Below, one piece after another: positions 345-17,885 of a DNA stretch of 64,000 nucleotides; position 1 is the first letter of the stretch; the number at the start of each line of letters is the position of its first letter. The DNA is from Pseudomonas fluorescens (GTDB lineage Bacteria; Pseudomonadota; Gammaproteobacteria; Pseudomonadales; Pseudomonadaceae), in the NCBI RefSeq assembly GCF_902497895.1, contig NZ_CABVHQ010000001.1, positions 62,001-126,000 of the forward strand, written 5' to 3'. A program made the translations under genes and the position numbers. A model generated the notes under the pieces. That model made no database searches. It was not told where the DNA came from and was given only the letters and a program-made list of their open reading frames with translations.

Positions 345-2173
345 AAGCTCCAACGATACTCTGTCGTCAATGAACCTGACTGATTGACTTCCAATTCAAG
401 AACTGGAACTTCAGTCTTGTCGAGATAATAAAGGGATTCCCAGCCTTCGACCATTTCCAGCCGGACAATCGGCATGGTGCCATGCACTTCAATGACATGA
501 TCACCGCACGTCAGCCGATTACCCTCCAGATGCCAGGAGCCCGGCATCAGGCGCCAGTGAAGAACAGCCTTTTGTTTAAAGCCAGAAATTTGGTCCACGA
601 CGGTCAGGGAATTGTCCGTCAGCATGACCTTGCGCTTATGCGCTGCTCCGGACGCATCCTTGTAGCCAGCTGCAAAACTGGCAACAGATTCCTCTGTGTG
701 CAGCGGTTCTACATAAGAAGTCTTCAACCAGTTACCGAACAGAAAGCGACTGATCCTTGGCATTTGATCGCGGCTGTCGAACTGGACCGTGTTATGAGCT
801 GCTGTGCCTGGAAAATAATTTAGCCACTTGGCCTCAGTGTTATAAGAATAAGTCCCTGCGTCACGCAGCAGGTTACTTGCTCCCACCCAAAGGTCGACGT
901 GCAACGCATCCGCCTGACTGGGTCTAAATCGAAACCGAGGATATCTCAACATCACCATTGCATAAGTGTTACGAAGTACAGCAAAACCACCTTTATCGAA
1001 GACCTGACTAACCTGTGGATCTGCCCTATCTACCGATTCTTTCAAGCCTAGCCAGCCAGCAGGCTCGTTCCAGCTTCCTTCACCATAAGCGTTTTTTCCC
1101 AAAAAAAGATTCATGGCAAGTTGAACACTTGGACGAAAGTCACGGTAGTCCGAGCGACTCAACTGAAGCAAGCGTGCTCCGTCATTAGCCCCCAGATTCG
1201 GAGCGTCACCATTTTCTTCCCTTACCATCGCTCGAAGCCAGATCGTAGCCGCTGCGGCGCGCGAGTACCAGGTATCTGAAAGCTTCGACAAGTTCAGATG
1301 CCTGCGCCACACTTCAACCATGCTGAACGTATCGAGCATCACGCGGTGATAGTTGAGGGAGTATTGGCTGAAGCTGCCATCCACTTCGATCAAACGCTCC
1401 GCTCGGTTTTCCAGCCACTTATAACCCTGTCGGACCCACTCAGCGCCCTCTGCTTGTCCGTTATGAGTAAGCAGGCTGCCGCCAATAAAGAGCGCAGCGG
1501 CTTCGGAAGTTCCGTGGTTGTTATCCTGGGCCATTGCGTAACTCAGGGTCGGTGCGATTCTCTTCAGGTGCTGTTTTATAAGTTCAAGCAGCGCAATGGT
1601 CGCTTCGCCCGTCTGCTCCAGTATCAGCGATGCCATCGCCAGGTGCATGACTCGAATAGACGCTTCCTGACCGCACTTCCAGTTCACGCCTTTATAGGGA
1701 GGATTGTTTGCGCACCAGTCTGCAAGCCAGCTATCGAGTTGCGATAAATAGTAGCTTTCTCCCGCTTTCGCGCGCTGAGCAAATGCCAACAGCCAGTCAA
1801 GTCGGGAGGTTTCCCAAACCATCTTGATGTCGCCCAGGCGAGAATCAAAATCAGGAATCTCCCACCAGTTCCGATTTGGCTGGTCCACCCGAACTCCCGT
1901 CAGAGGGTTACAGTGCCAATCAGGCGCAGTAGCCGTTATCGGATATGGCCAATAGCTGAATAGCAACGCCGTTGTCGCCCAGTGAGTGGGTAGCGCAATA
2001 TCTGATGGAGGATAATCGCGCTCAACAAAAAAAGGCCCCAGCTGTACAGCGTCGTGAAGACGCAGTACAGGGCTGATCCCGAGTTTGATTCCCATTCTGT
2101 ACCGAAAAACCCGGATCAGATTGGGAATCCCCAGAGAGAGGATGGATGAAATTTTTATGAATAGCCGCATCAT
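341..2173 (-). CDS. heparinase II/III-family (alginate-lyase-like) protein of O-antigen locus
   Basis: A 610-residue protein with an alpha-helical N-terminal half and a beta-rich C-terminal half (from about residue 385), the layout of heparinase II/III-type polysaccharide lyases. Candidate active-site positions are the Asn-Asn-His at 218-220, the YSLNYHR segment at 271-277, His425 and the His-Asn-Thr at 460-462. No secretion signal is evident: residues 5-20 are hydrophobic but not followed by a cleavage site. It starts in an ATGA overlap with the oxidoreductase upstream and ends in an ATGA overlap with the GT4 gene, so the three are coupled. Lyases of this fold cut uronic-acid polymers by beta-elimination. 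In an O-antigen operon the role is not established; editing or turnover of a uronate-containing glycan, or a sugar-modifying role, are both possible. Confidence 0.75.
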   Translation of the reverse strand: MMRLFIKISSILSLGIPNLIRVFRYRMGIKLGISPVLRLHDAVQLGPFFVERDYPPSDIALPTHWATTALLFSYWPYPITATAPDWHCNPLTGVRVDQPNRNWWEIPDFDSRLGDIKMVWETSRLDWLLAFAQRAKAGESYYLSQLDSWLADWCANNPPYKGVNWKCGQEASIRVMHLAMASLILEQTGEATIALLELIKQHLKRIAPTLSYAMAQDNNHGTSEAAALFIGGSLLTHNGQAEGAEWVRQGYKWLENRAERLIEVDGSFSQYSLNYHRVMLDTFSMVEVWRRHLNLSKLSDTWYSRAAAATIWLRAMVREENGDAPNLGANDGARLLQLSRSDYRDFRPSVQLAMNLFLGKNAYGEGSWNEPAGWLGLKESVDRADPQVSQVFDKGGFAVLRNTYAMVMLRYPRFRFRPSQADALHVDLWVGASNLLRDAGTYSYNTEAKWLNYFPGTAAHNTVQFDSRDQMPRISRFLFGNWLKTSYVEPLHTEESVASFAAGYKDASGAAHKRKVMLTDNSLTVVDQISGFKQKAVLHWRLMPGSWHLEGNRLTCGDHVIEVHGTMPIVRLEMVEGWESLYYLDKTEVPVLELEVNQSGSLTTEYRWSL

Positions 2174-4305
2174 TGATTACGCAATAACTCTGCTACTTCA
2201 ATAGAAATCCGTGCTACCTCAAAAACTTCATCAGCAGGAATGGCAGCTTCCCCCGCTTCGATCGCATTCATGAAGCTAGCCGCACAGCCATTCTGGCCTT
2301 TATCCTGTTTCCAGAGATTTAGTTTCTTGAACCCTGGCCAGCCAAACCCTTTAAGTTTACGGAAGTTATCCAACTGAAGAACGCGCCCGGCAGCAAAAAC
2401 TTCGACGCGCTCTTTGGCAAAGCTGGAGGCACCATTGGCCACGTAAAGAATGGTGCCGAATGAACCATCTTCGAATCCCAACGTTATCGAGGCTTTGTCC
2501 TCAGTAATATCAACACCAGGTGTATCGCCCATTCGACGAGCTTGCACCGAAATGATTTTGCTACCGGCAAGGAATCGCATCAGATCGATAAAGTGGCATG
2601 CTTCGCCAATAATTCGACCACCTCCAACAGCATTGTCCTGAGTCCAATGATTCGCTGGAATGGCACCCGCATTCATTGTCATGAGGAACGTTTTCGGCTC
2701 TTTGACCGAGGCTAACAATTCCTTCATCTTCACAACATGAGGGGAAAAGCGTCGGTTGAAACCGACCATCAGTTGCGGCCCTTTGCCGCCCGAATGGGCC
2801 TCTGTATAGGCGGCTTGCACCTCGTCCAGTTCTGAATGGGTGATTGCCAGCGGCTTCTCGACGAAGACGTTTTTCCCCGCAGTCAATGCCTTGTTCACAA
2901 AATGTGCATGACTATCGTGACGAGTAACGATCGCTACCGTGTTTATTGTCGAATCAGCCAGCATTCCATCCACATCAGTGGAAGCAACTGCGAAACCGGC
3001 TTTTGCTCCGTGAATGACTCCGTTCACGCCACCAGCGGTAACGATTGTATGAAACTGCGCCCCGGCATTTTTGAATGCTGGAATCAACATGCGTGAAGCA
3101 TAGTTCCCTGCACCAATGAAACCCATAACCGGACGCTGCGCATTAAAGGCGCTGGATGAGTCAAGTACAACAGTCCTGATTCCACGCTCAGCAACATCGG
3201 ATGCATATTCCAGGCAAATGCCTAAACCGGATTTGTCTTCGGTGAGCATTTTGTAAGCTTCGGCCGCGTCCTCAAACGCAAATCGCTGGCTGATGAGCGG
3301 TTTGACGTCCAGCTGCCCTGCGGCAAGCATGTCGAGGATAGCTTCGAAGTTACGTTGTTCAGTCCAACGAACAAAACCTATCGGGTAATCCTGGCCTTTA
3401 TCTTCATATAACGGGTCATAGCGGCCTGGGCCGTATGAGCACGAAACCTGGAAACTCAGTTCTTTTTCATAGAAATCAGCGCGATTAAGCTCCAGGCCCG
3501 TTACGCCGACCAATATGATGCGCCCACGCTTGCGAGACATTCGAGCCGCATGAGTTACCGGATCGCTCGCTTTTGTCGACGCAGTGATGATGACTCCATC
3601 GACCCCGTTGCCGCGACTGAACGCCATCCCTGCGCCAACCGGATCTTCACCTTTGGCCGGGTTACAGGTGCTCGCTCCGAACTGGCGTGCAAGAGCAAGT
3701 TTTGATTCGTCAAAATCAATCGCCAGGACTCTGCAACCTTGTGCACGTAACAGTTGCACAGTAAGAAGCCCGATCAAACCGGCCCCTATGACGACGAAAG
3801 CCTCTCCCAACGTGGGCTCGGCGAGCCGAATGCCTTGCAGACCAATGCTCGCGACAACGGTAAACGAAGCTTCGATGTCGCCTACTTCATCAGGAATAAG
3901 GGCGCACAGGTTCTTCGATATCTTTACTACGTCAGAGTGAGGTCCGTTGGAGACCACCCTGTCACCGACTTTGAAACCGTCGACACCCGCCCCTACCTCG
4001 TGGACGACACCTACGTTGCAATAGCCTAAAGGCAAGGGCTGTGAAAGCTTGGACTGGACAGCCTCGAGCGTAGTGACAAGGCCATCGGTCTGAATTTTCT
4101 CCAATACCATTTTTACTTTGTCGGGCTGCTGGCGCGCTTTCTCCAGATATGAGGCCTTGCCAAATCCAACCAACATGCGCTCGGTACCCGCCGAGATCAA
4201 CGACACACGCGTATTGATTACAACGCTACCGCGTGAAACCTGGGGCGAGGGAGCCTCCGTAATAGTGGTTTCACCCTTCGCCATATCCTGCAAAATCTGC
4301 TTCAT
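2170..4305 (-). CDS. two-domain oxidoreductase: zinc-type alcohol dehydrogenase fold fused to Gfo/Idh/MocA
   Basis: A 711-residue fusion. Residues 1 to about 375 are a medium-chain dehydrogenase with the nucleotide loop VIGAGLIGLL at 172-181. Residues about 393-711 are a Gfo/Idh/MocA enzyme with its own Rossmann loop GFIGAGNYA near 395-403, the family VEKP motif at 482-485 and a conserved His571 in GEACHF. It should therefore bind two dinucleotides and may oxidise and re-reduce a sugar ring, as Gfo/Idh/MocA enzymes do. ATG at 4305 is preferred to the upstream TTG (4338): it follows a GGTGG site and leaves 10 bases after the GT2 stop. The gene overlaps the heparinase-fold gene by ATGA. This pairing recurs in bacterial polysaccharide loci; substrate unknown. 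Confidence 0.8.
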   Translation of the reverse strand: MKQILQDMAKGETTITEAPSPQVSRGSVVINTRVSLISAGTERMLVGFGKASYLEKARQQPDKVKMVLEKIQTDGLVTTLEAVQSKLSQPLPLGYCNVGVVHEVGAGVDGFKVGDRVVSNGPHSDVVKISKNLCALIPDEVGDIEASFTVVASIGLQGIRLAEPTLGEAFVVIGAGLIGLLTVQLLRAQGCRVLAIDFDESKLALARQFGASTCNPAKGEDPVGAGMAFSRGNGVDGVIITASTKASDPVTHAARMSRKRGRIILVGVTGLELNRADFYEKELSFQVSCSYGPGRYDPLYEDKGQDYPIGFVRWTEQRNFEAILDMLAAGQLDVKPLISQRFAFEDAAEAYKMLTEDKSGLGICLEYASDVAERGIRTVVLDSSSAFNAQRPVMGFIGAGNYASRMLIPAFKNAGAQFHTIVTAGGVNGVIHGAKAGFAVASTDVDGMLADSTINTVAIVTRHDSHAHFVNKALTAGKNVFVEKPLAITHSELDEVQAAYTEAHSGGKGPQLMVGFNRRFSPHVVKMKELLASVKEPKTFLMTMNAGAIPANHWTQDNAVGGGRIIGEACHFIDLMRFLAGSKIISVQARRMGDTPGVDITEDKASITLGFEDGSFGTILYVANGASSFAKERVEVFAAGRVLQLDNFRKLKGFGWPGFKKLNLWKQDKGQNGCAASFMNAIEAGEAAIPADEVFEVARISIEVAELLRNQ

Positions 4306-4315
4306 AAAACCACCG

Positions 4316-5134
4316 TCAAGAATGATAAGTGTCGACAATATATTTAAGGGACTTTACATGTTCGCTCGCGATAAATTCGAGCTTCTCGCGGGAAGTAGAG
4401 CCATGGTCATCGTCAATGATCGTTATACTCGGTTGGTATTGAACCTTTAGACCGACTCTCAGGCATTGCTCAGCGACGAAATCCTCCTCACCAAACAAAA
4501 ATTGCGGATAGTCGACCGAGCCGCCCTGTGAAAAATACTGTTTAGTAAATAAAATAAATGAGCCGTGGGGGGAATAGAAGCTTTCGCCCGCAGCCAGAGA
4601 GCCGATGGAGCTTTTAACTTTCAAATCCGAAAGTTTTCGATAGATCTTCAACAACCAGAGGCGCTTGAAAATGAAAATATTTTTCAACAGGGAAAAACGC
4701 GTTGGTCTGTATAAAGTCTTCGGATTCAAATCACCTCCGCGGCCTTTGGAAAGGATGGCAGGCGCTATAATCCCAGTCTCATCAGAGACCGCATTAATTT
4801 GAGTTTTCAGCGATTCAAAAAAGTCCGCGCGCACGGTCAAATCGACGTTTGAAATGGCGACGCAGTCGAAATCAAGCAAAGAACCCAGCAACTCGGTTCC
4901 TTTCTTGAATCCTGGAAAGTACCCAACATTGTCCGACTTCAGGTAGTGCGTTGTGAAGTTCATGGCTGAAACGCTCACCAATACCTGCTCATCTATTTCC
5001 TTCGTTGAATTATCAACGATCACAAAGGTAAAACTTATGTCTTTCGCACGAGAAAGCGATTCGCTTAGAGAGGTTGCGAGATTCAACAGATGATCGTACG
5101 CATTATAACAAACACAAACTATCGCTACTCTCAT
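4316..5134 (-). CDS. GT2-family glycosyltransferase
   Basis: A 272-residue GT-A enzyme. It begins MRVAIVCVCYNAYDHL, the first nucleotide-binding strand of family 2. Asp41 in VIVDNS is the uridine/thymidine-contacting acid, and the Asn-Val-Asp at 96-98 sits where the DXD metal motif is expected. The FLFGEEDF segment near residue 217 resembles the catalytic acidic motif of rhamnosyl- and related GT2 transferases. No transmembrane helix is obvious, so it acts at the inner face of the cytoplasmic membrane, adding a sugar to the undecaprenyl-linked O-unit. The gene and its flanks are AT-rich relative to the rest of the window. A rhamnosyltransferase is an attractive guess given rmlBDA nearby, but the sequence does not fix the donor. 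Confidence 0.8.
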   Translation of the reverse strand: MRVAIVCVCYNAYDHLLNLATSLSESLSRAKDISFTFVIVDNSTKEIDEQVLVSVSAMNFTTHYLKSDNVGYFPGFKKGTELLGSLLDFDCVAISNVDLTVRADFFESLKTQINAVSDETGIIAPAILSKGRGGDLNPKTLYRPTRFSLLKNIFIFKRLWLLKIYRKLSDLKVKSSIGSLAAGESFYSPHGSFILFTKQYFSQGGSVDYPQFLFGEEDFVAEQCLRVGLKVQYQPSITIIDDDHGSTSREKLEFIASEHVKSLKYIVDTYHS

Positions 5135-5979: not shown

Positions 5980-6588
5980 TTATGACAACTCCGAGAAGTT
6001 CTTCAGTAAGTTAACGCCGAAGTGATGACTCTTTTCCGGGTGAAACTGCACGCCGTATACTGAACCGGCATTGACCGCGCACGTGAATTCCTCTCCATAC
6101 GTGGAGGACGCAAGCGCATGATCGCGTTCAGCACATTCAAAATAAAAAGAATGCAGAAAATAATATTTTGGAGTTTCCAGAAAGTTCTTGAATAGCCCAC
6201 TTGCGTGCAAAGGCACGACATCGTTCCACCCCATATGAGGCAGTTGCTTTACTTTCTCGATATCAAACTTTCTAACGGTGCCGGGTACCCAACCCAATCC
6301 AGGTAGTTCGCCTTCATCACTAGAGTTGGCGAGCATCTGCATGCCTACGCAGATGCCCAATACCGGAATTTTTTTGTCCAGTACCAAATCATCCAGCGCT
6401 TCACGCATACCGGAACGATTGAGACTGATCATCGCGTGATCAAACGAACCGACACCAGGCAATATTATTTTACTCGCCCCGGAAAGGTCCTGATAAGACG
6501 TTGCAACACAACATTCGATATTCAGCCGTTTATAAAGATTTATAAACGACAGTATATTACCGAGACCATAATCAACAACAGTAATCAT
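5980..6588 (-). CDS. hisH2: HisH-like glutamine amidotransferase subunit (HisH2 type)
   Basis: A 202-residue class I glutaminase. The nucleophile is Cys80 in [10 protein letters not shown], and the catalytic His183 and Glu185 lie in VQFHPEKSH, so the triad is complete. It begins in an ATGA overlap with the WbpG-like gene and abuts the HisF-like gene. It hydrolyses glutamine and passes ammonia through the HisF-like partner. In P. aeruginosa O5 the equivalent pair serves WbpG in making the acetamidino group of a mannuronic acid derivative; the same role is inferred here. It is not expected to be the housekeeping histidine-pathway HisH, because the partner HisF lacks a catalytic acid and the context is an O-antigen operon. 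Confidence 0.88.
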
Positions 6589-7724
6589 CTCTTGACTGCC
6601 CTTTCCATGCCCAACATATGCATGACTTTCGCCCCAAGCTCAAACAGATAGCGCTGAGATTTGTAATCGCGATAGGACTTGTTTGGCAATTCCATCAATG
6701 CTGTTAACTCGGGAACAGTCATATCCAGTTTGTTCGCGATGTATTCAAAATCCTGATCCACTGTCTCCGGATCGTACGCCGGCTGGGCCAGGTTATTCAA
6801 CGCATCTTCACGAGTCATCTGCCCGGTGAGGATAAGGCTCGAATACTGGATCTTCCTTGTGTCGTAACCAAACTTGGTCGGCAACCAGTAACCTTCGTAG
6901 AACTTCGTGAATCTTGACTCATCATGCTTACGAGGATACGACTTCCAGCCATATTCTCTAGACAGCGTCTCGATCGCTTCGGAACGAATATACGGCACGT
7001 AGTTCAAGGGCTTAATCACCTTGACACCCTTGAAGAAACGCAAATAAATCTTGTGAAACCAGATACTGCTCAGTGGGTAGTCCACCAACGGGCGCTCGCC
7101 AAACTTTTTATGAATGTCTTTCAACTGCCACATATCAGTACCGTAGTACATCCACTCCAATGGATTCCTGACGCACTCAGTTGAATAGTTTCCGCCATTC
7201 AGAATGTATTTGATCCCGTGCTTATTGGCGAAGTGGTACAGGGTCGCGATGAAAGCGTGGTCCTGAGGGATATCGAGATGTGGAACAGAGGCCTTGAAAA
7301 AAGCTCTCTGAAAATCCTTCATTTCTTCCCAATTGATAACCTCGGTGTACAGATCAAGGCCCAGTTTCTCAACGATAACCTCAATATTATGCACTGCCAA
7401 CTGAGAGTTCCAGCCGCCATCTACGTGAAAAACCAGCGGGCGCAAACCAAATTCTTTAACGGCAATATGCAGCAAATACGAACTGTCCAGCCCGCCACTC
7501 ATGCCCATAATGCAATCGAATGGTTTGCCTTTACTATCCGCTTTGATTTTCTCGAAAATCTCGGTGATTTGCTGCCTTCCCTTGGGACCTGTATCCCAAT
7601 GAGGAAGTAAATCACGATGGTAGCCGTTGCAGTGATCACAAACGCCTTTGTCATCAAATACAATATTTTCGTCTGTTGTATCCATCACACAGTTTGTGCA
7701 AATTTGATAGGGTCTTTTACTCAT
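6585..7724 (-). CDS. wbpG: N-acetyl sugar amidotransferase (WbpG/PseA family)
   Basis: A 379-residue PP-loop ATP pyrophosphatase-type enzyme. The loop SGGLDSS lies at 76-82 and a zinc-ribbon-like set of cysteines at 9, 12, 29 and 32 (CTNC and CDHC). The family activates a sugar carbonyl or amide with ATP and replaces oxygen by nitrogen delivered by HisH/HisF. ATG at 7724 is chosen because it follows a CGGAG site; an in-frame TTG at 7748 would add eight residues. The next two genes are coupled to it. In P. aeruginosa WbpG is needed for the acetamidino group of ManNAc(3NAc)A sugars. Here wecB/wecC supply ManNAcA, but no 3-amino genes (wbpB, wbpE, wbpD) are visible, so an amide or amidine on another carbon is also possible. 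Confidence 0.87.
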
Positions 7725-7818
7725 GCTAACTCCGAGTACACTTGACAAGTCGGCACGCTACATGCCTGAATTATACTTCGAGACATTAAAACAAGACTTT
7801 GCAAGTCAATTTTCAGCC

Positions 7819-9072
7819 TCAAGCTTTTAGGTATTTTGTTGTAATCAGGGTGAACAGAATCAATTCACCTAGAACAAAGCTGATTGCTGCGCCATAAACG
7901 CCCCATATGCTCGTCAATGTCACACAAGCGGACACTGTTACGACGCCCGTCAATATCAAAACCTTGGCATAATATTTCTTCGAATTCAAATTGTTCAAGC
8001 CCGCTGTTCCCAACATGAAATTGGCAACTCCAAAGAAGACGCCAATCGTCATAAATAGGAACAGCCCGGCCATAAGCTGTTTGTTTGGATAGGATCTCAA
8101 AAATTCCAGGTAATCATTAAACATAAGCCATATGATAATAAACCCCGAAAGAATAGTCGCAAGGGCAGCCAACTGCATCCAGGTCAATTTCATCACCTTG
8201 ACAAAAGCGCCCGGACCGGGCGCATTTTCGTCACGCAACGAGTGAATCGCCCTGGTGAAGAAAAACTGGTTGAGCGGCCTAATGAGCGCCTGGAAGGCCT
8301 TGATGAGTTTCTCGACCACGGAATAGCTTGCTATGGCTGCGGGGCTCACCGAGAAAAAACTCAACACCAGCAAATTGGAGTCCCTGAACAAAACAACGGC
8401 GATGTTCCCGAAGAAAATATCCTTACCCTCATGCAAACATTCCCAGAGGCGAGAGAACGACACACTGATATATTTCAAACCCAGCGCCGCTTTTAAATAG
8501 ATCGATGAGGCAAGTCCACCCGCCAGATAACATCCACCTACTATCAACGGCAGGAAATAGACAGGATCCTCTGCTTTCAAAAAGAGAAACACAACCAAAC
8601 AGCAGGACAAACGACTTATCAATGTAAAAACTGCGACCGGAAGATTGTTCTCGATCGACTGATAGAAATAGGTTGACTGAAAGATAAAACTCAACGGCAC
8701 CAGCATCCAGCATAACAATGAAAAGAAAAACTGCTCTTGCAAAAAAAAGCCGGAAATCAGCACCGCGATCGCGCAGACAAGCCAAATTATGATTCTTGAA
8801 AAAAAGATTTCACAATATACATTGGAAGCCGCGGCAATTCCGCCACGCGCGTATGAACTCACGACTCGCGAAACGCCATTGACTTCATAACTGTACAACA
8901 CGACAGCAAGAATAATGAGCGATACGGCTTCGGACACAACAAGATCTGAAAACTTGGCTGAACCGAACAAATGCAGTACATACGGAAAAATGAAGATAGG
9001 CAGAATTGCGTTTGCGCCTTGAATGCAAGCTAGCGAGGCTATATTTGTTAGGTCTTTTCGCAACAATGTCAT
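7819..9072 (-). CDS. wzx: Wzx-type O-unit flippase
   Basis: A 417-residue, very hydrophobic protein with about 12 predicted membrane segments and few charged loops, typical of the PST/MOP flippases that move undecaprenyl-linked O-units to the periplasmic side. Early segments include AILPIFIFPYVLHLF and LIILAVVLYSY. Wzx proteins are poorly conserved, so the call rests on length, topology and place in the cluster. ATG at 9072 is preferred to the in-frame TTG at 9084, although neither has a strong ribosome site. The region is AT-rich, as is usual for wzx. A Wzy polymerase is not in this window and should lie to the left if the cluster is Wzy-dependent, as the adjacent wzz suggests. Confidence 0.85.
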   Translation of the reverse strand: MTLLRKDLTNIASLACIQGANAILPIFIFPYVLHLFGSAKFSDLVVSEAVSLIILAVVLYSYEVNGVSRVVSSYARGGIAAASNVYCEIFFSRIIIWLVCAIAVLISGFFLQEQFFFSLLCWMLVPLSFIFQSTYFYQSIENNLPVAVFTLISRLSCCLVVFLFLKAEDPVYFLPLIVGGCYLAGGLASSIYLKAALGLKYISVSFSRLWECLHEGKDIFFGNIAVVLFRDSNLLVLSFFSVSPAAIASYSVVEKLIKAFQALIRPLNQFFFTRAIHSLRDENAPGPGAFVKVMKLTWMQLAALATILSGFIIIWLMFNDYLEFLRSYPNKQLMAGLFLFMTIGVFFGVANFMLGTAGLNNLNSKKYYAKVLILTGVVTVSACVTLTSIWGVYGAAISFVLGELILFTLITTKYLKA

Positions 9073-9268
9073 ATCTCGAATCAAAGTAAGTTATTTAATT
9101 ATATTTTCCTGCTTATTAACTGGTCCTTTCACCTCCCTCGTCTTTACTAAATGCGAACTGTATCGTTAATTTTGCACTTCGCAAACACACAGAAAGCAGT
9201 ACCCGCCAAGGTACTGCTCATTTAGATTGTTGCAGCTGACTGCAACTAAACCATGACGACGTACTACT
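9073..9268. other. wecC-wzx intergenic region with two perfect inverted repeats
   Basis: No gene is seen. Two compact perfect hairpins occur: AGCAGTAC/GTACTGCT at 9195-9218 with an 8-base loop, and GTTGCAG/CTGCAAC at 9229-9246 with a 4-base loop. Neither is followed by a thymine run on the minus strand, so neither looks like a classical terminator. They could be RNA-stabilising, pausing or processing elements inside the O-antigen transcript, or protein sites. The rest of the gap is AT-rich and may hold an internal promoter. Confidence 0.5.
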
Positions 9269-10534
9269 TCACTTACTCCAGACACCGCGCGTATCAATCA
9301 GCTTGATTGCACCCAAACGAGCAGGAGGCAGTTCTTTGAACACCTTATGGTCAACCAACATCAACACAATAGTGGCTTCGCTCAAAGCGTCTTCTACCGA
9401 TTTGAACTCCACAACTTCGTCGAGTGTAGCCGGCAGTTCCGAAATGTTGGGTTCTACTGCGAATACACGCCCTGGGTGTTCGTGAGCGATGCGCTTGGTG
9501 ATCGCGACCGCAGGGCTTTCGCGCAGATCGTCGATATCGGGTTTAAAAGCGAGTCCGAAACACGCCACCGTGACTTCTTTTGCTGTTTTTTCTGGATTGG
9601 ACTGCAGATATTCCGCAACGGCCAGCTTGACCTTATCAATAACCCATTCAGGTTTTGCGTCGTTCACTTCGCGTGCACAACGAATAATTTTAGCTTCTTC
9701 AGGGGTTTTACTGACGATGAACCAAGGGTCTACAGCGATGCAGTGCCCACCGACGCCTGGGCCGGGTTGAAGAATATTCACCCTCGGATGGCGATTCGCC
9801 AATCGAATCAATTCCCAGACGTTGATATTTAGCTTATCGCAAATCATCGAAAGTTCGTTGGCAAACGCAATGTTCACATCCCGAAAACTGTTTTCGGTAA
9901 GTTTACACATTTCGGCTGTTCGAGCGTTGGTGATTACACATTCGCCTTCTACAAACAACTGATAAAGTTTGGCCGCACGCTCGGAGCATTTAGCGGTCAT
10001 CCCACCAATCACACGATCATTCTGTACCAGTTCTCGCAGCACATGTCCTGGCAAGACGCGCTCGGGACAGTGAGCAACACGGATATCGGACGACTCTCCA
10101 TGGGTCTGAGGAAAAGTAAGATCGGCGCGCATTTCAGCTAACCAGTTTGCCACTTGCTCCGTCGCGCCAACAGGTGAGGTGGACTCCAGGATCACCAGAT
10201 CGCCGGCCTTCAGTACCGGTGCAATGGCCCTGCACGCTGACTCGATATACGAAAGATCAGGTTCATGGTCGCCCTTGAATGGGGTTGGCACCGCGATCAG
10301 AAACGCATCAGCTGGCTCAGGGGTCTGGGTTGCACGCAGGTAGCCCTCTGTTACTGCGGCATGAACCACAATATCAAGATCCGGTTCAACGATATGAATC
10401 ATCCCTTTGTTGATGGTATCAACTGCGAGTTTGTTCACATCCACCCCAACTACCTTGATTTTTCGCGATGCGAAAACGGCAGCAGTGGGTAAACCGATGT
10501 AACCTAAACCAATAACTGAGATAGTCTTAAACAC
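9269..10534 (-). CDS. wecC: UDP-N-acetyl-D-mannosamine dehydrogenase
   Basis: A 421-residue nucleotide-sugar dehydrogenase closely resembling E. coli WecC over its whole length (for example IHIVEPDL, AVPTPFKGDHEPD and LANRHPRVNILQPGPG). The NAD-binding loop GLGYIGLPTA is at 9-18 and the catalytic Cys265 lies in GVGGHCIAVDP. It oxidises UDP-ManNAc to UDP-ManNAcA with two NAD per sugar in the cytoplasm. It follows wecB, which makes its substrate, with 50 bases between them. WecC is chosen over WbpA or WbpO (UDP-GlcNAc and UDP-GalNAc dehydrogenases) because of the detailed WecC match and the wecB partner. The product probably feeds the O-antigen, and may be the substrate of the amidotransferase triad downstream. 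Confidence 0.95.
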   Translation of the reverse strand: MFKTISVIGLGYIGLPTAAVFASRKIKVVGVDVNKLAVDTINKGMIHIVEPDLDIVVHAAVTEGYLRATQTPEPADAFLIAVPTPFKGDHEPDLSYIESACRAIAPVLKAGDLVILESTSPVGATEQVANWLAEMRADLTFPQTHGESSDIRVAHCPERVLPGHVLRELVQNDRVIGGMTAKCSERAAKLYQLFVEGECVITNARTAEMCKLTENSFRDVNIAFANELSMICDKLNINVWELIRLANRHPRVNILQPGPGVGGHCIAVDPWFIVSKTPEEAKIIRCAREVNDAKPEWVIDKVKLAVAEYLQSNPEKTAKEVTVACFGLAFKPDIDDLRESPAVAITKRIAHEHPGRVFAVEPNISELPATLDEVVEFKSVEDALSEATIVLMLVDHKVFKELPPARLGAIKLIDTRGVWSK

Positions 10535-10584: not shown

Positions 10585-11727
10585 TTAAATTTTTACAGTG
10601 ACGGGAAAGTTAGCCAGCACTTCGATTATACGTTGGCAAGCTTTGCCATCCCCGTACGGATTATGAGCAAAGCTCATGCTTTCGTAGGCTGCTGTATCTG
10701 AAAGCAATAGCTCCAGATGCTGAGCTATTGTGCGTGTTTCAGTGCCAACCAGTTTTACGGTGCCTGCCTCAACGGCTTCCGGACGCTCGGTTGTCTCTCG
10801 CATGACAAGCACTGGCTTTCCAAGCGATGGCGCCTCTTCCTGGATTCCACCGGAGTCCGTCAGAATGATAAAAGACTGATTCATCAAATAAACGAACGGC
10901 AAATAGTCTAGCGGTTCAATCAGGTGAATGTTGTCTATGCCTGACAATAGCCGGTTGATCGGCTCTCTGACATTGGGATTCAGATGCACGGGATAAACAA
11001 TTTCCACGTCGGGAAATGCTTTGGCCGTATCCACCAGCGCGTGACAGATACGTTCAAATCCGCCGCCAAAGCTTTCGCGGCGATGCCCAGTCACCAGGAT
11101 CACCTTTTTTCCGCTTCGAATGAACGAAAACTGCTCTTCCAGACCAGCTTTCAAAAAACTCGACTCTTCAAGTTTCTTGACTACATCGAGCAAGGCGTCA
11201 ATAACCGTATTACCGGTTATATACACGGTTTCTGGATTGACGCCTTCTTTGAGAAGGTTACGCTCGGAATTTTCTGTTGGGGCAAAATGCAGTGCAGCCA
11301 GCGCCCCGGTCAGCTTGCGATTGCCTTCCTCCGGCCAGGGGGAATAAAGATTTCCTGTTCTCAAACCGGCTTCAACGTGAGCGACTGGAATTTGCTGGTA
11401 ATAGGCGGCCAAAGCAGTCGCAAAGGTTGTGGCAGTGTCGCCGTGAACCAAAACAATATCGGGTTTAAAATCATCGAAGACGTTTTTCATACCCTGCAGA
11501 ATCGCGGTTGTCACCGCGTTCAGATCCTGCCCGGGCTGCATTATGTTCAGATCATATTCGGGTGTTAAGGCAAACAGGTCCAGCACTTGATCCAGCATCT
11601 GCCGGTGTTGAGCGGTGACGCAAACTTTCGACTCAAAACGTCTGTCCTCTGCGAGCGCCAGCGCAAGGGGAGCCATCTTTATTGCTTCAGGCCTGGTTCC
11701 AAATACAGAAAGTACTTTTAAGGGCAT
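10585..11727 (-). CDS. wecB: UDP-N-acetylglucosamine 2-epimerase (non-hydrolysing)
   Basis: A 380-residue enzyme with near-complete similarity to E. coli WecB (376 residues). It starts [17 protein letters not shown] and holds [26 protein letters not shown] and [17 protein letters not shown]. These carry the conserved acidic and His residues of the epimerase active site and the UDP site. It interconverts UDP-GlcNAc and UDP-ManNAc; wecC then oxidises the latter. It is the first biosynthetic gene after rfaH and the ops element, so it is the first gene whose transcription the antiterminator should favour. No other enterobacterial common antigen genes are near, so it is assigned to the O-antigen rather than to ECA. 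Confidence 0.95.
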
Positions 11728-11819: not shown

Positions 11820-11831
11820 CACGCTACCGCC
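11820..11831 (-). promoter_or_regulatory. canonical ops (RfaH recruitment) element, JUMPStart-like
   Basis: The minus strand reads GGCGGTAGCGTG, a perfect match to the 12-nt ops element that pauses RNA polymerase and recruits RfaH in E. coli. The bases just upstream (CCTGGG joining the element, preceded by CAGGGAACTG) also resemble the JUMPStart sequence. It lies in the 165-base leader between rfaH and wecB, about 95 bases before the wecB start, the usual place for an ops site. Upstream on the same strand is a TTGACA that could be part of an internal promoter, but no good -10 box follows it. Confidence 0.9.
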
Positions 11832-11892
11832 CCAGGATTTGACGTCAGTTCCCTGAAAACGATGTGTACCGCTATGTCAAGCGTTCTCACCA

Positions 11893-12438
11893 TTATTTGA
11901 AATGTGAGCATCTACGCTTTATGGAACCTGCCACCCGTCCGTTTTTACGCCAGGTCTGCTGGCGAGAAACGAAATCTATGAAGAGTAGTGCACGCTTCTT
12001 CACATCCGATGTCATAAAAATGACGTCCAGCTCTGAAAAAGCACTACCATCAACATTCAGTTTATCATCGACGTTTAGCGTTGATGTAGAAGCTTGTGCC
12101 GACCGGTGCTGTAGTTCGACGATGAGCGGATCACTGACTGGCAAAGGTTTACCGCCGAAACCTACCACTTTACTCACACCTCGAGTCGACCGCAAAGGGA
12201 CCCAATTTGCATCGTTAGGTAGATTTATGAACAGGTAACCTGGAAAGAGCGATTCGGTCACCCACTGGTGCTGCCCTCGCACCGATTTTTCACGGCAACA
12301 GGTGGGCCGGAAGCATTGATAGCCTTGGCGAATCAAGTGCTCCTCCGCACGTCCGTCCTGACGAGGCTTGCATTGAATCAGATACCAGGTCTGTTCTCGA
12401 GGAGCGTTTAGGTCGCTCGCCGCACTATGAATGTTCAT
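11893..12438 (-). CDS. rfaH: RfaH-type transcription antiterminator (NusG paralogue)
   Basis: A 181-residue protein resembling E. coli RfaH (162 residues) in its NusG N-terminal domain: QTWYLIQCKPRQ, AEEHLIRQGYQCFRP, ESLFPGYLFINL and STRGVSKVVGFGG. The C-terminal domain (about 125-181) aligns with the RfaH fold-switch domain through AF, VIF and RALLFIDFVSR, but has lost the usual KOW glycine and ends in a basic tail. It should bind the beta-prime clamp of polymerase paused at an ops site and suppress termination through long operons. ATG at 12438 follows a TACGGA site; an in-frame ATG at 12528 would add 30 residues unlike RfaH. It sits just before a perfect ops element and wecB, so it probably acts on its own operon. 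Confidence 0.88.
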   Translation of the reverse strand: MNIHSAASDLNAPREQTWYLIQCKPRQDGRAEEHLIRQGYQCFRPTCCREKSVRGQHQWVTESLFPGYLFINLPNDANWVPLRSTRGVSKVVGFGGKPLPVSDPLIVELQHRSAQASTSTLNVDDKLNVDGSAFSELDVIFMTSDVKKRALLFIDFVSRQQTWRKNGRVAGSIKRRCSHFK

Positions 12439-12831
12439 ATCCGTACACATATCACAAATGGTCGCTTCCATGGGATCAGTCGCGCACATGCAATGTCGAT
12501 GAAAGCCGTTCACTGAAACCGACCCCACTCTCGTTCGCCATCACATGGGCTTGTATCCCCACCCGTTTGCAGGTAAAAAACGTGACGCTGACACCATTCT
12601 CCGATCGTAACCCTGCAGATTTCTTCGACATTCTACTCGCAACGGTGCTAACTACAAAAATCGATGATCTGTTATCCCCCTACCGCCATGATGAGAGCTG
12701 CTTGCCGTCGTCGCCGCTACAAGACAGCTAGCGACAACCCTATAGATGCAAAGGGCACACTTCATGTCGGCCAGTGCGCCCAATATCATTGCTCGTTACA
12801 TCCAGACAAACCTGAAGCCGACCAGCAATAC
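12439..12831. other. wzz-rfaH intergenic region with an ops-like octamer
   Basis: About 390 bases without a convincing gene. On the minus strand positions 12680-12687 read GGCGGTAG, the first eight bases of ops, but the last four are GGGG instead of CGTG. An AGCAGCT segment lies about 15 bases upstream, as in JUMPStart sequences. If functional, this would place an RfaH site before rfaH itself. No terminator with a thymine run was seen after wzz, so wzz and rfaH may be co-transcribed. Confidence 0.45.
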
Positions 12832-13881
12832 CTAGCGGATTCCCTCTCTTCTGACGAAGATTTGGTAAGACACCGCCACTACACCGCCGAGAACCAGACC
12901 TGAGATCAATCCAAGCAAAATTATTAAAGATTTTTTTGGTTTGACCGGCCTATCAGGGTGCTCGACCACACCATCGAAGCGGTAAACCGCTACATCTTGA
13001 GGCCTTGTCTCAAGCTCCTTGTAAAAGCTGTATTTGGCTTGAAGGTCTCTGAGGCGACCTATAAAAGGATCATCAGAAACCCGAGCCTCGAGATTTTTAA
13101 TCTCAGCGTTGAGCGCCTTGGTCCCGCGCATATAAATCAGCTGCCCTTCCATGCTTCCCGCAATTTCTACGGAAGGGTTACCCGTGATGATTGGGGGCTT
13201 TTCCAGATTGATCGCTTCTGCAACATGCAACGCCTCGCGCAACTTGGTGATTGAGTCTTCGCGATTCTTTTTACCGGTTTCGCGCAACGTATGAAGTTGC
13301 TGATTGAGGCTGCGAGCTCGTACTTCAGCTTCACGCGCTACGTTTTTAATCATCTCGTTTTCTGCACGCTCGCCTGCACGTCTGACATAGGTGTCAACCC
13401 ACTCTCTAGCACGCTCCGGATCACTGCTCTGAGCGACAACCAGATAGCGGTCCGGCGCATCTTTACTTGGCGGCACCACAGAAATTTTCTTTGTGAACTC
13501 TGAATACAGCAAACCCTGTGATCCTTCACGTTCGCTGCTGCTCAGTATCGGGAGATACATATCTTCATAAAACTTGCGCCGCAATGACTCAGACTGTAAG
13601 TTCAGGACAAAAATACCATAGATATCCTTGACACTGTACGGCGTGAGTTCTGAATCGTTGGTTCGACCGTAGTTAAAGTTTGCGATGTCATTTTGTGTCG
13701 GAGGTATCACATAAGCTCGCGCCTCATAGACTGGCGCGCTCGTGAGCGCATAGATAACCGCAAATACTGTTGTAATGGCTGCAACACCGAGCATCAACCA
13801 TATTTGTTTCCACAATATCCTGAGAACGCCTCTGAAATCGATCTCCTGCAGGCTACCGGGCTCCACGGGACTATTTTGCAT
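12832..13881 (-). CDS. wzz: O-antigen chain-length determinant (Wzz)
   Basis: A 349-residue polysaccharide co-polymerase of the Wzz family. A first membrane helix lies at about 24-46 (IWLMLGVAAITTVFAVIYAL), followed by a large periplasmic domain with coiled-coil helices and a second membrane helix near the C-terminus (SLIILLGLISGLVLGG), preceded by the proline-rich PVKPKK segment usual for the family. It sets the modal length of Wzy-polymerised O-antigen in the inner membrane. ATG at 13881 follows an AAAAGGT ribosome site; a GTG at 13908 would add nine residues. It lies between rmlA and rfaH, with a 339-base gap on the rmlA side that may contain its promoter. Confidence 0.93.
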   Translation of the reverse strand: MQNSPVEPGSLQEIDFRGVLRILWKQIWLMLGVAAITTVFAVIYALTSAPVYEARAYVIPPTQNDIANFNYGRTNDSELTPYSVKDIYGIFVLNLQSESLRRKFYEDMYLPILSSSEREGSQGLLYSEFTKKISVVPPSKDAPDRYLVVAQSSDPERAREWVDTYVRRAGERAENEMIKNVAREAEVRARSLNQQLHTLRETGKKNREDSITKLREALHVAEAINLEKPPIITGNPSVEIAGSMEGQLIYMRGTKALNAEIKNLEARVSDDPFIGRLRDLQAKYSFYKELETRPQDVAVYRFDGVVEHPDRPVKPKKSLIILLGLISGLVLGGVVAVSYQIFVRREGIR

Positions 13882-14220
13882 AAAAACTGACCTTTTATTA
13901 GATTTCACAACCTATCAATGCTATTGATGAGGTCCTTATTTCAGCATAAATACTTCCGCAGACAGGCCTCAGAATCCATTTCCTTGTCCACATACGCACG
14001 TTTTTTACAACTCACGGTGCAATCCATTCCTTTTTGCGTCAAAACAGACTGTGATATCCCCCTCACCCATTTAACAAGCACCGCTCGAGCAAAGTTTATA
14101 TAATTGTGGAACGTAGTTTGAATATTGAAGTGTGCTCCAAAGCTGATTGACGTAGGGCAGGACATAACAATTCACTCGCTCCGCACTTTCTCAAATATTG
14201 CAACATATAAATCACAGGCT
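13882..14220. other. rmlA-wzz intergenic region
   Basis: A 339-base AT-rich gap. No gene is supported: a possible minus-strand frame of 74 codons (13941-14165) has no ribosome site or recognisable sequence. The TATATAA stretch near 14098 on the minus strand could be part of a promoter for wzz and the genes after it, but no good -35 box is spaced correctly. No intrinsic terminator after rmlA was seen. Confidence 0.4.
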
Positions 14221-15123
14221 TCATTGCTTCAAGCCGAGAACAGCCCGTGCAAGGTTGTGCAAATACTGGCCATAACCGGTTTTTTTCAATCGATCAGCCT
14301 GAAGACTCAATTGCTCCACTGTGATCCATCCGTTACTAAAGGCGATTTCTTCGAGACAGGCTACTTTGAGGCCCTGACGCTGCTCGATGGTATGCACAAA
14401 GTGGCTGGCTTCGAGCAGAGAGTCATGGGTACCTGTGTCCAACCACGCAAAGCCGCGCCCCAGCATTTCGACGTTGAGAGTATTCTGTTCCAGATAAGCA
14501 CGATTTACGTCGGTTATTTCCAGTTCGCCCCGATTGGACGGTGTGATGTTCTTCGCTATTTCAACGACCCGGTTATCGTAAAAGTACAAACCGGTTACAG
14601 CGTAATTGGATTTCGGCTTGAGGGGTTTCTCTTCGATGCTCAAGGCTCGACCCGAAGTATCAAACTCAACCACACCAAAACGCTCCGGATCGGAAACGTG
14701 ATAGCCGAAAACCGTCGCGCCGTGTTCCTGGCTGCTGGCCGAATGCAGTTTGTCCGAGAAGTGCTGACCATAGAAGATGTTGTCGCCCAGAATCAGGCAG
14801 CATGGGTCCTTGCCGATGAACTCTTCGCCGATGATGAAGGCTTGCGCCAGGCCGTCCGGGCTCGGCTGTTCAGCGTAGGTCAGCTGGATGCCATAGAGGC
14901 TGCCATCACCCAGCAGCTTGCGGAAGCACGGCAAGTCTTCAGGGGTGGAAATGATCAGGATTTCGCGCATGCCCGCGAGCATCAATACCGACAGCGGATA
15001 AAAGATCATCGGCTTGTCGTAGATCGGCAGCATCTGCTTCGAAACGCCGAGGGTCAGCGGGTGCAAACGCGTGCCCGAGCCGCCTGCGAGGATGATGCCT
15101 TTGCGGTTTGTCGTGTTGATCAT
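14221..15123 (-). CDS. rmlA: glucose-1-phosphate thymidylyltransferase
   Basis: A 300-residue RmlA. The nucleotide-binding signature [16 protein letters not shown] lies near 9-24, with [27 protein letters not shown] and [10 protein letters not shown] further on. It joins dTTP and glucose-1-phosphate to give dTDP-glucose, the first step to dTDP-L-rhamnose, and is usually feedback inhibited by that product. It is last of rmlB-rmlD-rmlA and its ATG overlaps the rmlD stop (ATGA). The rmlC epimerase expected for the pathway is not in the window; it may be elsewhere on the chromosome or left of the window. Length is slightly above the 290-293 usual for the family. Confidence 0.96.
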
Positions 15124-16013
15124 TTATCGAGAACTTCCATTAGCATTCGGGTTACGCCACGTTGCCAATTCGGCAAGTGCAGAGAAAAATTGTCACGCAG
15201 CTTCTGAGTGTTCAAGCGTGAGTTCAGCGGGCGACGTGCAGGTGTTGGATAGGCCGTGGTGTCGATCGGATTGATGGCCGTCACCGCCAGTTGTTCACTA
15301 TGGCTGCGGGCGAATTCGATCACATGACTAGCATAGCCGTACCATGACACTTCACCGCTCGCCGCTAAGTGATACATGCCTCCGAGTTCTGGATGCTGTA
15401 TGACTTTTTGAATGGCTAGCGCGGTTACGTCTGCGATCAGATCCGCACCGGTGGGTGCGCCGATCTGGTCTGCGATGACACTAAGGGTTTCCCGCTCCCT
15501 GGCCAGACGCAGCATGGTCTTGGCAAAGTTGTTGCCACGAGCGCCGTAGACCCAACTGGTGCGAAAGATCAGGTGTTTGCAGCCCGAAGCGATAATGGCC
15601 TGCTCGCCAGCGAGCTTGCTTGCGCCGTAGTGATTCACGGGTGCAACGGCGTCATCTTCTCGCCATGGTTTTTGCCCATCACCGCTGAACACGTAGTCCG
15701 TCGAGTAATGAATCAGCCAGGCATCAAGGGCCAAGGCCTCCTCGGCCATGACCTGGCTCGCCAGGGCATTTACCCGGGTTGCCAGTTCAGGTTCTGATTC
15801 GGCTTTATCCACCGCGGTGTAAGCCGCGGCGTTGACGATAAGATCAGGTTTGACCTGGCGAATCGTTGCTCGAAGTGAGTCAAGGTCGGACAAGTCGCCG
15901 CATAGTCCATTGACCCTGTGGCGATCCAGAGCGATCACCTCGCCCAGTGGCGAAAGTGAGCGCTGCAGTTTCCAGCCGACCTGGCCGTTCTTGCCCAGTA
16001 AAAGAATTTTCAT
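15120..16013 (-). CDS. rmlD: dTDP-4-dehydrorhamnose reductase
   Basis: A 297-residue extended short-chain reductase. The NADPH loop is GKNGQVGW at about 7-14, [10 protein letters not shown] carries the family Thr-Asp-Tyr, and YGASKLAGE has the Tyr/Lys pair of the active site. It reduces dTDP-4-keto-L-rhamnose to dTDP-L-rhamnose. The longer open frame reaching 16109 is rejected: [10 protein letters not shown] is the family N-terminus, and its ATG (16013) overlaps the rmlB stop as ATGA. The gene overlaps rmlA in the same way, so the three are translationally coupled. Confidence 0.96.
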
Positions 16014-17086
16014 GCTTGGCTCGAACGGTCGCTGTAGTTTTTGTCGATCCACTGCTGGTAGCTGCCACTTTTCACGTGTGCTACCCACTCGGTGTTGTTG
16101 AGGTACCACTCGACGGTTTTGCGGATTCCGGTCTCGAAGGTCTCTTCCGGTACCCAGCCCAATTCGCGCTGGATCTTGCTGGCATCGATTGCGTAGCGCT
16201 GGTCATGGCCAGGGCGATCTTGAACATAGGTGATCAAGCTGGCATGAGGGCGATGCGCGGAATCCGGGCGCAGCTCATCGAGCAGCGCGCAGAGGGTGTG
16301 CACGACTTCGATGTTTTGCTTTTCGTTATGGCCACCGATGTTGTACGTCTCGCCGATGACGCCTTCGGTCGCGACTTTGTACAGGGCACGGGCGTGGTCT
16401 TCGACGTAGAGCCAGTCGCGAACCTGATTGCCTTTGCCGTAGACCGGCAGTGGTTTGCCTTCCAGCGCATTAAGAATGATCAGCGGGATCAACTTCTCGG
16501 GGAAGTGGCACGGGCCGTAGTTGTTCGAGCAGTTGGTGACCAGGGTCGGCAGGCCGTAGGTGCGGTTCCAGGCACGAACCAGGTGATCGGAGCTGGCCTT
16601 GCTGGCCGAATACGGCGAGCTTGGCTGGTAGGGGGTGGTTTCGGTGAAGAGGTCTTCCGGACCTTCGAGGTCTCCGTAGACTTCGTCGGTGGAAATATGG
16701 TGGAAGCGGAAACTGGCCTTACGCACGTCATCCAGAGCGCTCCAGTACTGACGAGCGGCTTCCAGCAAGGTGTAGGTGCCGATGATGTTGGTCTGTATGA
16801 ACTCGGAAGGGCCAGAGATCGAGCGATCAACGTGGGATTCTGCTGCCAGGTGCATGATCGTATCGGGCTGGTGTTCACGCAGGACGCGATCAACCTGGTC
16901 GCGATCGCAGATATCCACGCGTTCGAACACATAGCGCTCACTCTGAGCCGCTTCTGCCACAGACTCAAGATTGCCGGCGTAGGTAAGCTTATCCAGATTT
17001 ACTACAGAGTCTGCGGTATTCGAGATGATGTGGCGAATGACTGCAGAGCCAATAAACCCGGCGCCGCCGGTAACTAGAATTTTCAC
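16010..17086 (-). CDS. rmlB: dTDP-glucose 4,6-dehydratase
   Basis: A 358-residue extended short-chain dehydrogenase. The NAD loop [11 protein letters not shown] lies at 6-16, the [10 protein letters not shown] segment holds the Thr-Asp-Glu active-site trio, and [15 protein letters not shown] has the catalytic Tyr and Lys. It converts dTDP-glucose to dTDP-4-keto-6-deoxyglucose. The start is GTG at 17086, because [10 protein letters not shown] is the conserved family N-terminus and no ATG fits. It is the first gene of rmlBDA and lies downstream of a candidate promoter at 17241-17269. Confidence 0.97.
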
Positions 17087-17588: not shown

Positions 17589-17885
17589 TCAAATCTCCTC
17601 CTCCTCGTCTTCATTCACCCGATCCCGAAGCTCTTTACCCGGCTTGAAATGAGGAACGAATTTCCCATCCAGACTGACGGACTGACCAGTCTTAGGGTTG
17701 CGGCCCACGCGCGGTGCGCGGTAGTGCAAAGAGAAGCTGCCAAAGCCACGGATCTCGATGCGATCGCCGGTAGCCAGGCACTGGGACATTTGCTCGAGCA
17801 TGGTCTTGATGGCCAGCTCCACATCCTTGGATGAGAGCAGCCCTTGATGGGTGACAATTCGTTCGATCAACTCCGACTTCGTCAT
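17589..17885 (-). CDS. ihfB: integration host factor beta subunit
   Basis: A 98-residue DNA-bending protein of the HU/IHF family, starting [10 protein letters not shown] and containing [17 protein letters not shown] and [10 protein letters not shown], the beta-arm segment whose Pro intercalates into DNA. The acidic C-terminus is longer than in E. coli (94 residues). It pairs with IhfA to bend DNA at promoters, recombination sites and replication origins. In Pseudomonas ihfB (himD) marks one edge of the O-antigen locus, as here. The 190 bases before it probably hold its promoter. Confidence 0.97.

Follow-up and report, generated by a model that had tools for sequence, protein, structure and literature searches.

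An rfaH gene directly upstream of an exact ops element heads a polysaccharide operon in Pseudomonas fluorescens: a recurrent, apparently self-targeting arrangement

In E. coli, rfaH is a stand-alone gene with several unlinked targets, on which its product, the antiterminator RfaH, acts in trans (PMC7593976). The locus described here raises the question of whether an RfaH may instead be dedicated to the operon that its own gene adjoins. In the window, that is, the whole stretch of 64,000 nucleotides of Pseudomonas fluorescens DNA that was analysed, the minus strand carries a wzz-like gene, rfaH, ops, wecB and wecC in that order, so that rfaH lies directly upstream of an apparent single target. 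The initial annotation of this stretch proposed a self-contained module in which RfaH is made just ahead of the operon it serves. The results presented below describe a real, recurrent and apparently self-targeting arrangement of known machinery.

The perfect 12-nt ops element claimed for the wecB leader is indeed there: GGCGGTAGCGTG has 0 mismatches to the E. coli 12-mer, 61 bp separate it from the rfaH stop (11893), and the wecB ATG lies 92 bases past it. All the listed ops features (PMC11001881; PMC5995543), namely the hairpin-forming pair G2-C9, T6 and the TG at positions 11-12, are present. In the draft genome (6,340,107 bases, 173 contigs) the exact element occurs as a single copy, and its 58 one-mismatch copies represent background, the reversed control giving 73 at up to 1 mismatch. 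Within the window, 7 matches at up to 2 mismatches compare with 6.88 expected, which is chance level, and the remaining 6 each have 2 mismatches. The bare 12-mer is present in 171 of the 199 genus genomes, with 33 copies against 32 for the reversed control in the first 20 table rows; its count alone is uninformative in the genus. The signal beyond chance is the position of ops beside rfaH, repeated over genomes, and not the 12-mer itself. A near-ops sequence upstream of rfaH, GGCGGTAGGGGG (12676-12687), has 2 mismatches, one of which breaks G2:C9, and was taken as chance; it sits at the edge of a segment missing from P. chlororaphis PCL1601. The TTGACA at 11875-11880 is kept in PCL1601, but it lacks a good -10 by eye, and therefore no promoter is claimed there. 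On the minus strand, scanning gave neither a promoter-like nor a terminator-like site in the rfaH-wecB gap, so the simplest assumption is that transcription reads through it, although scans of this type carry little weight. The features of the locus are collected in Table 1.

Table 1. Features of the rfaH-ops locus, in positions of the window
Feature	Coordinates	Strand	Basis or remark
ops element GGCGGTAGCGTG	11820..11831	-	exact match; sole exact genome copy
JUMPStart-type RNA hairpin	11831..11857	-	full 7-bp stem; both-side changes among relatives
composite hairpin-ops element, 42 nt	11820..11861	-	kept among relatives, both flanks drift
rfaH, NusG-paralogue antiterminator	11893..12438	-	TIGR01955, PF02357
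wecB, UDP-GlcNAc 2-epimerase, first after ops	10585..11727	-	TIGR00236, 530 bits
wecC, UDP-ManNAc dehydrogenase	9269..10534	-	NF008286, 764.5 bits
wzx-like flippase	7819..9084	-	PF01943, 33.6 bits (cut-off 28.2)
N-acetyl sugar amidotransferase (WbuX family)	6585..7748	-	TIGR03573, 331.5 bits
hisH-like	5980-6588	-	named by reading the sequence
hisF-like	5200-5979	-	named by reading the sequence
distal genes block	341..5134	-	ORFs
glycosyltransferase-like	4316-5134	-	weak match
dehydrogenase/Gfo-Idh-like fusion	2170-4338	-	
heparinase-like	341-2173	-	
wzz-like chain-length gene, upstream of rfaH	12832..13908	-	PF02706, 57.3 bits
rmlA (14221-15123), rmlD, rmlB	14221..17086	-	named by reading
ihfB, upstream border of site	17589..17885	-	name from reading

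Downstream of rfaH and ops, the expected long polysaccharide operon is present, and its gene content and site suggest that O-antigen is the product. Inspection by eye of the 25 nt leading up to the wecB ATG showed no Shine-Dalgarno sequence, and RfaH targets are often described without one (PMC13015549). Upstream, the name rmlA is supported by a nucleotidyltransferase domain (PF00483, 256 bits). The eight genes from wecB to the gene at 2170-4338 are 87-96% identical to those of PCL1601, and rmlA, rmlB and rmlD are 86-94% identical, so that rfaH, at 78%, is the fastest of the compared genes of the block. The wzz match in PCL1601 (48%) lies at another place and may not be an orthologue; the 1.5-kb segment with wzz between rmlA and rfaH (12676-14220) is missing in that strain. 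The gene at 2170-4338 is a single long frame joining an alcohol-dehydrogenase-like and a Gfo/Idh-like half. Elsewhere in the window, a gyrA RNA motif (RF01740, 29683-29769, 78.2 bits), ordinary for Pseudomonas, precedes a gene read as gyrA.

The protein stands at the border of the RfaH family model TIGR01955 (cut-off 144.5), with 143.8 bits as a protein and 144.6 bits with its neighbours in a six-frame search. Its probable start is the ATG at 12438, from which it shares MNIHSA with the PCL1601 protein, the longest frame opening at a GTG at 12528. The NGN domain is recognized clearly (PF02357, 71.4 bits, cut-off 22.2), a PDB search by sequence returned E. coli RfaH first, and the UpxY and LoaP models gave 44.8 of the 100 bits and 25 of the 125 bits needed. 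All five ops-contact residues, K10, R16, H20, R23 and R73, are present by alignment, and the positions of K10, R16 and R73 are invariant among 46 sequences. The position of R11 is P in the window protein, and H20 is N in most relatives of the type A defined below, unlike the window protein. The autoinhibition residues E48, F130 and R138, the last being the partner of E48, are likewise present in the alignment with E. coli RfaH. By the same means, the Rho-binding loop of NusG (I-F-G) is seen to be lost, F-V-S standing at the positions of L145-I146-N147. The contact residues are those of PMC11001881 and PMC5995543, the roles of the residues follow PMC7593976, PMC5995543 and PMC13015549, and the Rho-binding loop is that described in PMC7593976.

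The C-terminus of this protein is diverged, which the initial annotation missed. Its tail is not alignable to that of other relatives, SDVKKR stands where relatives have MDGEER, and the full-length ones among the best genus matches end near residue 161-164. The closer relative is the RfaH of PCL1601, which is 78% identical, shares part of the tail and ends early; the other best matches in 398 genus genomes are 57% (a truncated copy, over 117 residues) and 55% identical. A frameshift in the tail was considered and rejected, as the other frames gave nothing by eye. Against PCL1601, which has a stop in the tail, dN and dS over the two domains are 0.075 and 0.69 for the N-domain and 0.17 and 0.82 for the C-domain (dN/dS about 0.2); the C-domain is thus constrained but looser. 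The AF2 model of the window protein (mean pLDDT 73.6) has an alpha-helical C-domain with helices at 135-142 and 146-165 of moderate confidence (pLDDT about 56-80), and its best PDB match is autoinhibited E. coli RfaH (5ond). For the P. lundensis relative, which has the same architecture, the model (81.1) has a beta C-domain and best matches fully recruited RfaH (8phk). Built on alignments of 45-46 sequences, the alpha and beta models fit a fold-switching family without settling the native fold.

The initial annotation proposed looking in other Pseudomonas loci for an rfaH with ops after it, and the outcome of this check is clearly positive. RfaH scored over the cut-off in 66 of 199 genus genomes, and the genus set comprises 76 loci, 6 of them below the cut-off and 70 above it, which were typed by where ops lies with respect to the rfaH stop. 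In type A (22 of 76 loci, 17 exact and 5 with one mismatch), ops lies 61-556 bp downstream on the same strand; in type B (19 loci, 18 exact and 1 with one mismatch), it lies 6.9-8.6 kb upstream on the same strand; in type C (9 loci), an exact ops lies on the opposite strand, 3.5-5.4 kb upstream; type D contains the other 26. An exact ops 0-700 bp after rfaH was found at 17 of the 76 genus loci and 44 of 79 named loci, while the reversed and 200 permuted 12-mers gave 0 in this interval in both sets. The place of ops beside rfaH is therefore not due to chance, and the direct order rfaH-ops, with its gap of 61 bp in the window, recurs. It is nevertheless one among several arrangements, which follow the RfaH clade: on an RfaH tree of 72 of the 76 loci, the architecture requires 7 changes as against 38.2 in shuffles (72 rows). 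L101, with an internal stop, and L103, L104 and L106, with 140 residues or fewer, were omitted from this tree.

At six D loci (L064, L069, L072, L084, L092 and L103), a variant, GGCGGTAGCTTT, lies upstream, which suggests that these loci carry a changed ops; this CTTT form keeps bases 1-9 and loses the pause TG. Five of the six share a tree clade with L100, which has none, L103 being outside the tree set. At the remaining 20 of the 76 genus loci, neither the ops 12-mer nor GGCGGTAGCTTT was found in a recognised place; L105 and L106 among them are poor RfaHs, and some, such as L080 and L088, have one-mismatch copies elsewhere that were left as chance. No recognisable ops was found near rfaH in a 16-member RfaH clade (L062, L065-L068, L076, L080, L085, L086, L088-L091, L095, L096 and L099); in L096, the one member scanned, outer-membrane-barrel and wzc-like genes follow rfaH. 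At 16 of the 19 B-type loci (L032, L034, L036-L043, L045-L048, L053 and L058), two ops-like sites stand 89-119 bp apart, about 7-8.7 kb upstream of the rfaH stop, and 12 B-type loci have GGCGGTAGCTTT and then GGCGGTAGCGTG, each with its own predicted hairpin. Damaged rfaH copies (in-frame stop, truncation, degeneration or early end) occur at L101, L104, L106 and L157, and at three of these four an ops with 0-1 mismatch still follows.

The named set consists of the best 79 of 472 stretches confirmed in an alignment-based contig search, a single-protein query having matched nothing. These best 79 divide into 44 exact A loci, 4 A loci with one mismatch, 20 C loci, 3 with a same-strand upstream ops and 8 with none, and as the sets overlap, genus and named counts are not additive. 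Named A loci include Azotobacter, Stutzerimonas and Serpens, and A. vinelandii CA is among the 8 with none, two of which have an exact ops farther downstream (+891 and +7108). Two of the 3 upstream loci have GGCGGTAGCTTT about 8.3 kb upstream; the third, P. oryzagri, has its -303 measured from an over-extended frame, and its exact ops lies about 150 bp past the matched residues. A second search with the window protein gave loci for 30 of 54 places, 2 of the 30 being left out. Its best matches added 14 new genomes, of which 7 have an exact ops within 100 bp, 1 has one mismatch, 4 have none within 1.5 kb, and 2 were left out. Repeated hairpin-ops copies inside one cluster were noted at L204, L207 and L194, and in Pseudomonas sp. 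CC6-YY-74 two complete rfaH-ops modules (L195 and L217) stand about 37 kb apart.

The ops element is preceded by a predicted RNA hairpin. In the window, UUCAGGG (11851-11857) pairs with UCCUGGG (11831-11837) through 7 pairs, 3 of them G-U, and the final pair uses the ops base G1; the typical stem of relatives is CUCAGGA/UCCUGGG, immediately 5' of ops. All 7 pairs are formed in 54 of 64 distinct elements, with loops of variable length, as against 1.9% after shuffling of the upstream bases. For pair counts, 52 of the 64 elements were aligned with E. coli, 12 near-duplicates being omitted by eye. In this alignment 91.6% of the cells are pairing (shuffled 89.8%, slid versions at most 74.9%), and 9 cells with a double change, a count reached in none of 500 shuffles, compare with 3.0 in the shuffles. 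Counted by stem pair, the double changes (3 versus 1.8 shuffled, reached in 47 of 500 shuffles) are less striking as evidence for covariation. Folding energy alone was a poor discriminator between the 73 ops leaders and random positions (medians of -3.9 and -2.2 kcal/mol), and we relied instead on fixed position and covariation. The E. coli JUMPStart sequence was confirmed in E. coli genomes, and its stem as paired by hand, CUCUGG/CCAGGG, is that of most relatives (CUCAGG/CCUGGG) with one pair reversed, changed on both sides. The JUMPStart-like bases noted earlier upstream of ops are thus borne out as a 7-bp stem; the window site scores 21.6 bits against a gathering threshold of 35 for Rfam JUMPstart (RF01707), and we therefore call the element JUMPStart-like rather than a member of that family. 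Leaders of type B and of other families (the latter by eye) have different predicted hairpins in roughly the same place.

In the cryo-EM structure of the ops-paused complex, RNA polymerase stands at U11 with a 10-bp hybrid (PMC11001881). Its authors stress that the ops pause differs from hairpin-stabilised pauses. Since the stem ends on G1 and such a hybrid would, by arithmetic, cover G2-U11, the hairpin would abut the hybrid at the pause and, in the native leader, may restrain backtracking or assist recruitment. This could be the function of the JUMPStart hairpin, which has long been known.

Whether one RfaH serves one operon was followed with the 17-mer CYTGGGGCGGTAGCGTG, which unites the hairpin arm with ops as these occur at A and C loci and does not extend to B leaders. 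It occurs in 26 copies in 25 of the 199 genomes, as against 1 copy for the reversed control, and 25 of the 26 lie within 10 kb of an rfaH when compared with the RfaH places in these genomes. The unlinked copy (G139) has unrelated surroundings in a genome without RfaH over the cut-off and was judged a coincidence. As nearly all copies stand near rfaH, we favour the reading that A- and C-type RfaHs, unlike that of E. coli, seem dedicated to one linked operon. The single-target design put forward for the window agrees with this linkage, with its sole exact genomic ops and with the recurrence of the pair.

The further proposal that the module would move as a unit on transfer is doubtful. At 41 of 70 type-A loci (duplicate genomes included), the same strand carries ihfB 1.3-7.0 kb upstream; the stretches of the other 29 do not include it. 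The distances of rfaH and rpsA are moderately correlated (Mantel r 0.43, p 0.001, 34 loci, duplicates included), and no plasmid match to the P. lundensis RfaH reached 60% identity among 33 records with E up to 1e-20. The first gene after ops varies, being wecB, rmlA, wecC-like, epimerase-like or others by BLAST to the window proteins, and loci with wzc-like genes also carry the rfaH-ops pair. The ihfB neighbour and the rfaH/rpsA correlation suggest that the rfaH-ops pair is less a mobile package than the fixed head of an O-antigen site, behind which sugar genes are exchanged.

With its anatomy, the unique exact ops, the repeated linkage, the covarying hairpin and the kept contact residues, the locus is probably a cis-linked antitermination module of one RfaH, one ops and one operon, in which RfaH binding, pausing, antitermination and co-transcription would proceed as follows. 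A polymerase starting upstream would transcribe rfaH and then the leader hairpin, and would pause at ops, 61 bp past the rfaH stop, where the stem abutting the hybrid at U11 could hold back backtracking. The ops strand exposed in the bubble would recruit RfaH translated from this transcript or from previous ones. RfaH would displace NusG, so that Rho is resisted, and may bring a ribosome to the start of wecB, where no Shine-Dalgarno is visible; the polymerase, so modified, would then carry on through the sugar-nucleotide and flippase genes for 11 kb or more. Weighing against this module are the score at the TIGR01955 cut-off, the diverged C-terminus and the 20 of 76 loci without a recognised ops. 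In another reading the module is decaying: ops and hairpin would be relics, and RfaH, losing its C-terminal ribosome-recruiting domain, would retain antipausing by the N-domain or be inactive. The unalignable tail with SDVKKR for MDGEER fits such a decay, as do the early end of the PCL1601 copy, the in-frame stop in the P. taeanensis copy and the short G035 copy (113 residues from the domain start), the last two each followed by an ops with one mismatch. We nevertheless consider decay unlikely, given an N-domain under purifying selection, a C-domain dN/dS of about 0.2, kept contact and autoinhibition residues and a perfect ops.

It could also be supposed that the protein is a trans regulator of the E. 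coli kind that stands by chance beside one of several targets, and the predicted autoinhibited-like fold, together with the trans action of the E. coli factor, would suit this. Several targets would, however, be difficult to find in a genome with a single exact ops and one-mismatch copies at background, and across 199 genomes 25 of the 26 hairpin-ops 17-mers are linked to rfaH, which makes this supposition quite improbable. That ops is here a plain pause site, or a chance 12-mer, read by NusG alone would accord with a bare 12-mer about as frequent in the genus as its reversed control; in view of the position, the hairpin and the recurrence beside rfaH, it is hardly to be believed. The cis-linked module thus remains our preferred reading.

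An antiterminator of P. aeruginosa is reportedly the subject of a published study. In the parts available of the literature consulted (PMC7593976, PMC13015549, PMC2864571, PMC5995543, PMC11001881, PMC4483657, PMC5532660, PMC6804347, PMC7247339, PMC12691694 and PMC7819879), operon-adjacent homologues are described, as is an ops-dependent RfaH acting in trans; these parts, with subscription papers largely outside the search, contain no module of rfaH followed by its own ops and no Pseudomonas ops. The main texts of PMC13015549 and PMC7819879 do not contain the word Pseudomonas, and that of PMC7593976 contains it once at most. The window resembles the E. coli system in its identical 12-nt ops, kept contact and autoinhibition residues, hairpin just 5' of ops and polysaccharide targets; it differs in the linkage of rfaH, in an element under the Rfam JUMPstart gathering threshold and in the diverged RfaH C-terminus. 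UpxY, TaA and LoaP are NusG paralogues whose genes adjoin or lie inside their target operons (PMC7593976; PMC7819879; PMC12691694), as here the gene adjoins the operon it is thought to serve, and LoaP requires a leader RNA hairpin (PMC12691694). The window protein is much closer to RfaH than to UpxY or LoaP, and the locus has an exact ops with the hairpin fused to the pause site.

According to the available text of a preprint (PMC13015549), monomorphic cis-acting RfaH homologues adjoin long operons of LPS type (7 of 10 in its Table 1); they miss a few of the residues that bind ops and are ops-independent. The window resembles them in operon adjacency, and the P. lundensis relative in its modelled beta C-domain; unlike them, the window keeps ops and the contact residues checked, and its protein is modelled as alpha. 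In the same table, 17 of 212 metamorphic homologues are next to an operon, so that an ops-type RfaH beside an operon is not without precedent; the text available holds no description of the ops of these 17. In Pseudomonas stutzeri 273, an RfaH-domain protein is found in the EPS locus (EPS273-M; PMC5532660), again an rfaH inside a polysaccharide locus of the Pseudomonas group, and ops occurs 0 times in the text available of that paper. As far as these sources go, a 2020 survey counted E. coli RfaH as the sole one whose recruitment was understood in detail (PMC7593976), and the 2026 preprint ties a cis location mainly to homologues missing some ops-binding residues (PMC13015549). The papers contrast a trans, ops-dependent RfaH with operon-adjacent paralogues of unknown or ops-independent recruitment. 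With a natural set of RfaHs that combine adjacency with an ops, the cis-to-trans model can be tested directly, and the target of each of them can be predicted from sequence. The rfaH-ops leader may also be a ready tool for expressing long sugar operons in Pseudomonas.

We tentatively raise, as a rather doubtful extension, that rfaH-hairpin-ops is a widespread self-targeting gammaproteobacterial module whose RfaH already requires ops in serving its own operon, that ops recognition arose in cis with the unlinked multi-target enterobacterial RfaH derived from it, and that the clade-specific hairpin is the second part of an address. If so, a hairpin abutting the paused hybrid would keep several RfaHs per cell apart or control backtracking. 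In a class sample of 143 genomes, 35 have an RfaH at E up to 1e-25, 34 of them besides the genome of the window. An exact ops lies on the same strand within 1.5 kb downstream of rfaH (80-1451 bp) at 10 of these 34 loci, and a further one has a downstream ops with one mismatch; at 3 of the 34, fewer than 600 bases are available downstream. An exact ops precedes the rfaH stop by 0.6 and 1.0 kb at two loci, stands 3.2 kb downstream at one, and lies on the opposite strand, 6.4 kb upstream, at another. The 14-mer GGGGCGGTAGCGTG occurs in 3 of the 143 genomes, that of the window included, and the extended Pseudomonas form is therefore not general. In 7 of the 11 downstream cases, a MarR_EPS-like gene (TIGR04176, 59-68 bits, cut-off 88) stands between rfaH and ops, and the 2020 survey, in the part available, describes HTH neighbours for one RfaH cluster (PMC7593976). 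The order rfaH, MarR_EPS-like gene, ops and sugar genes was observed at L236, L237, L243, L244, L246, L262 and L270, each from a different family, and L238 is an eighth MarR_EPS-like case by eye.
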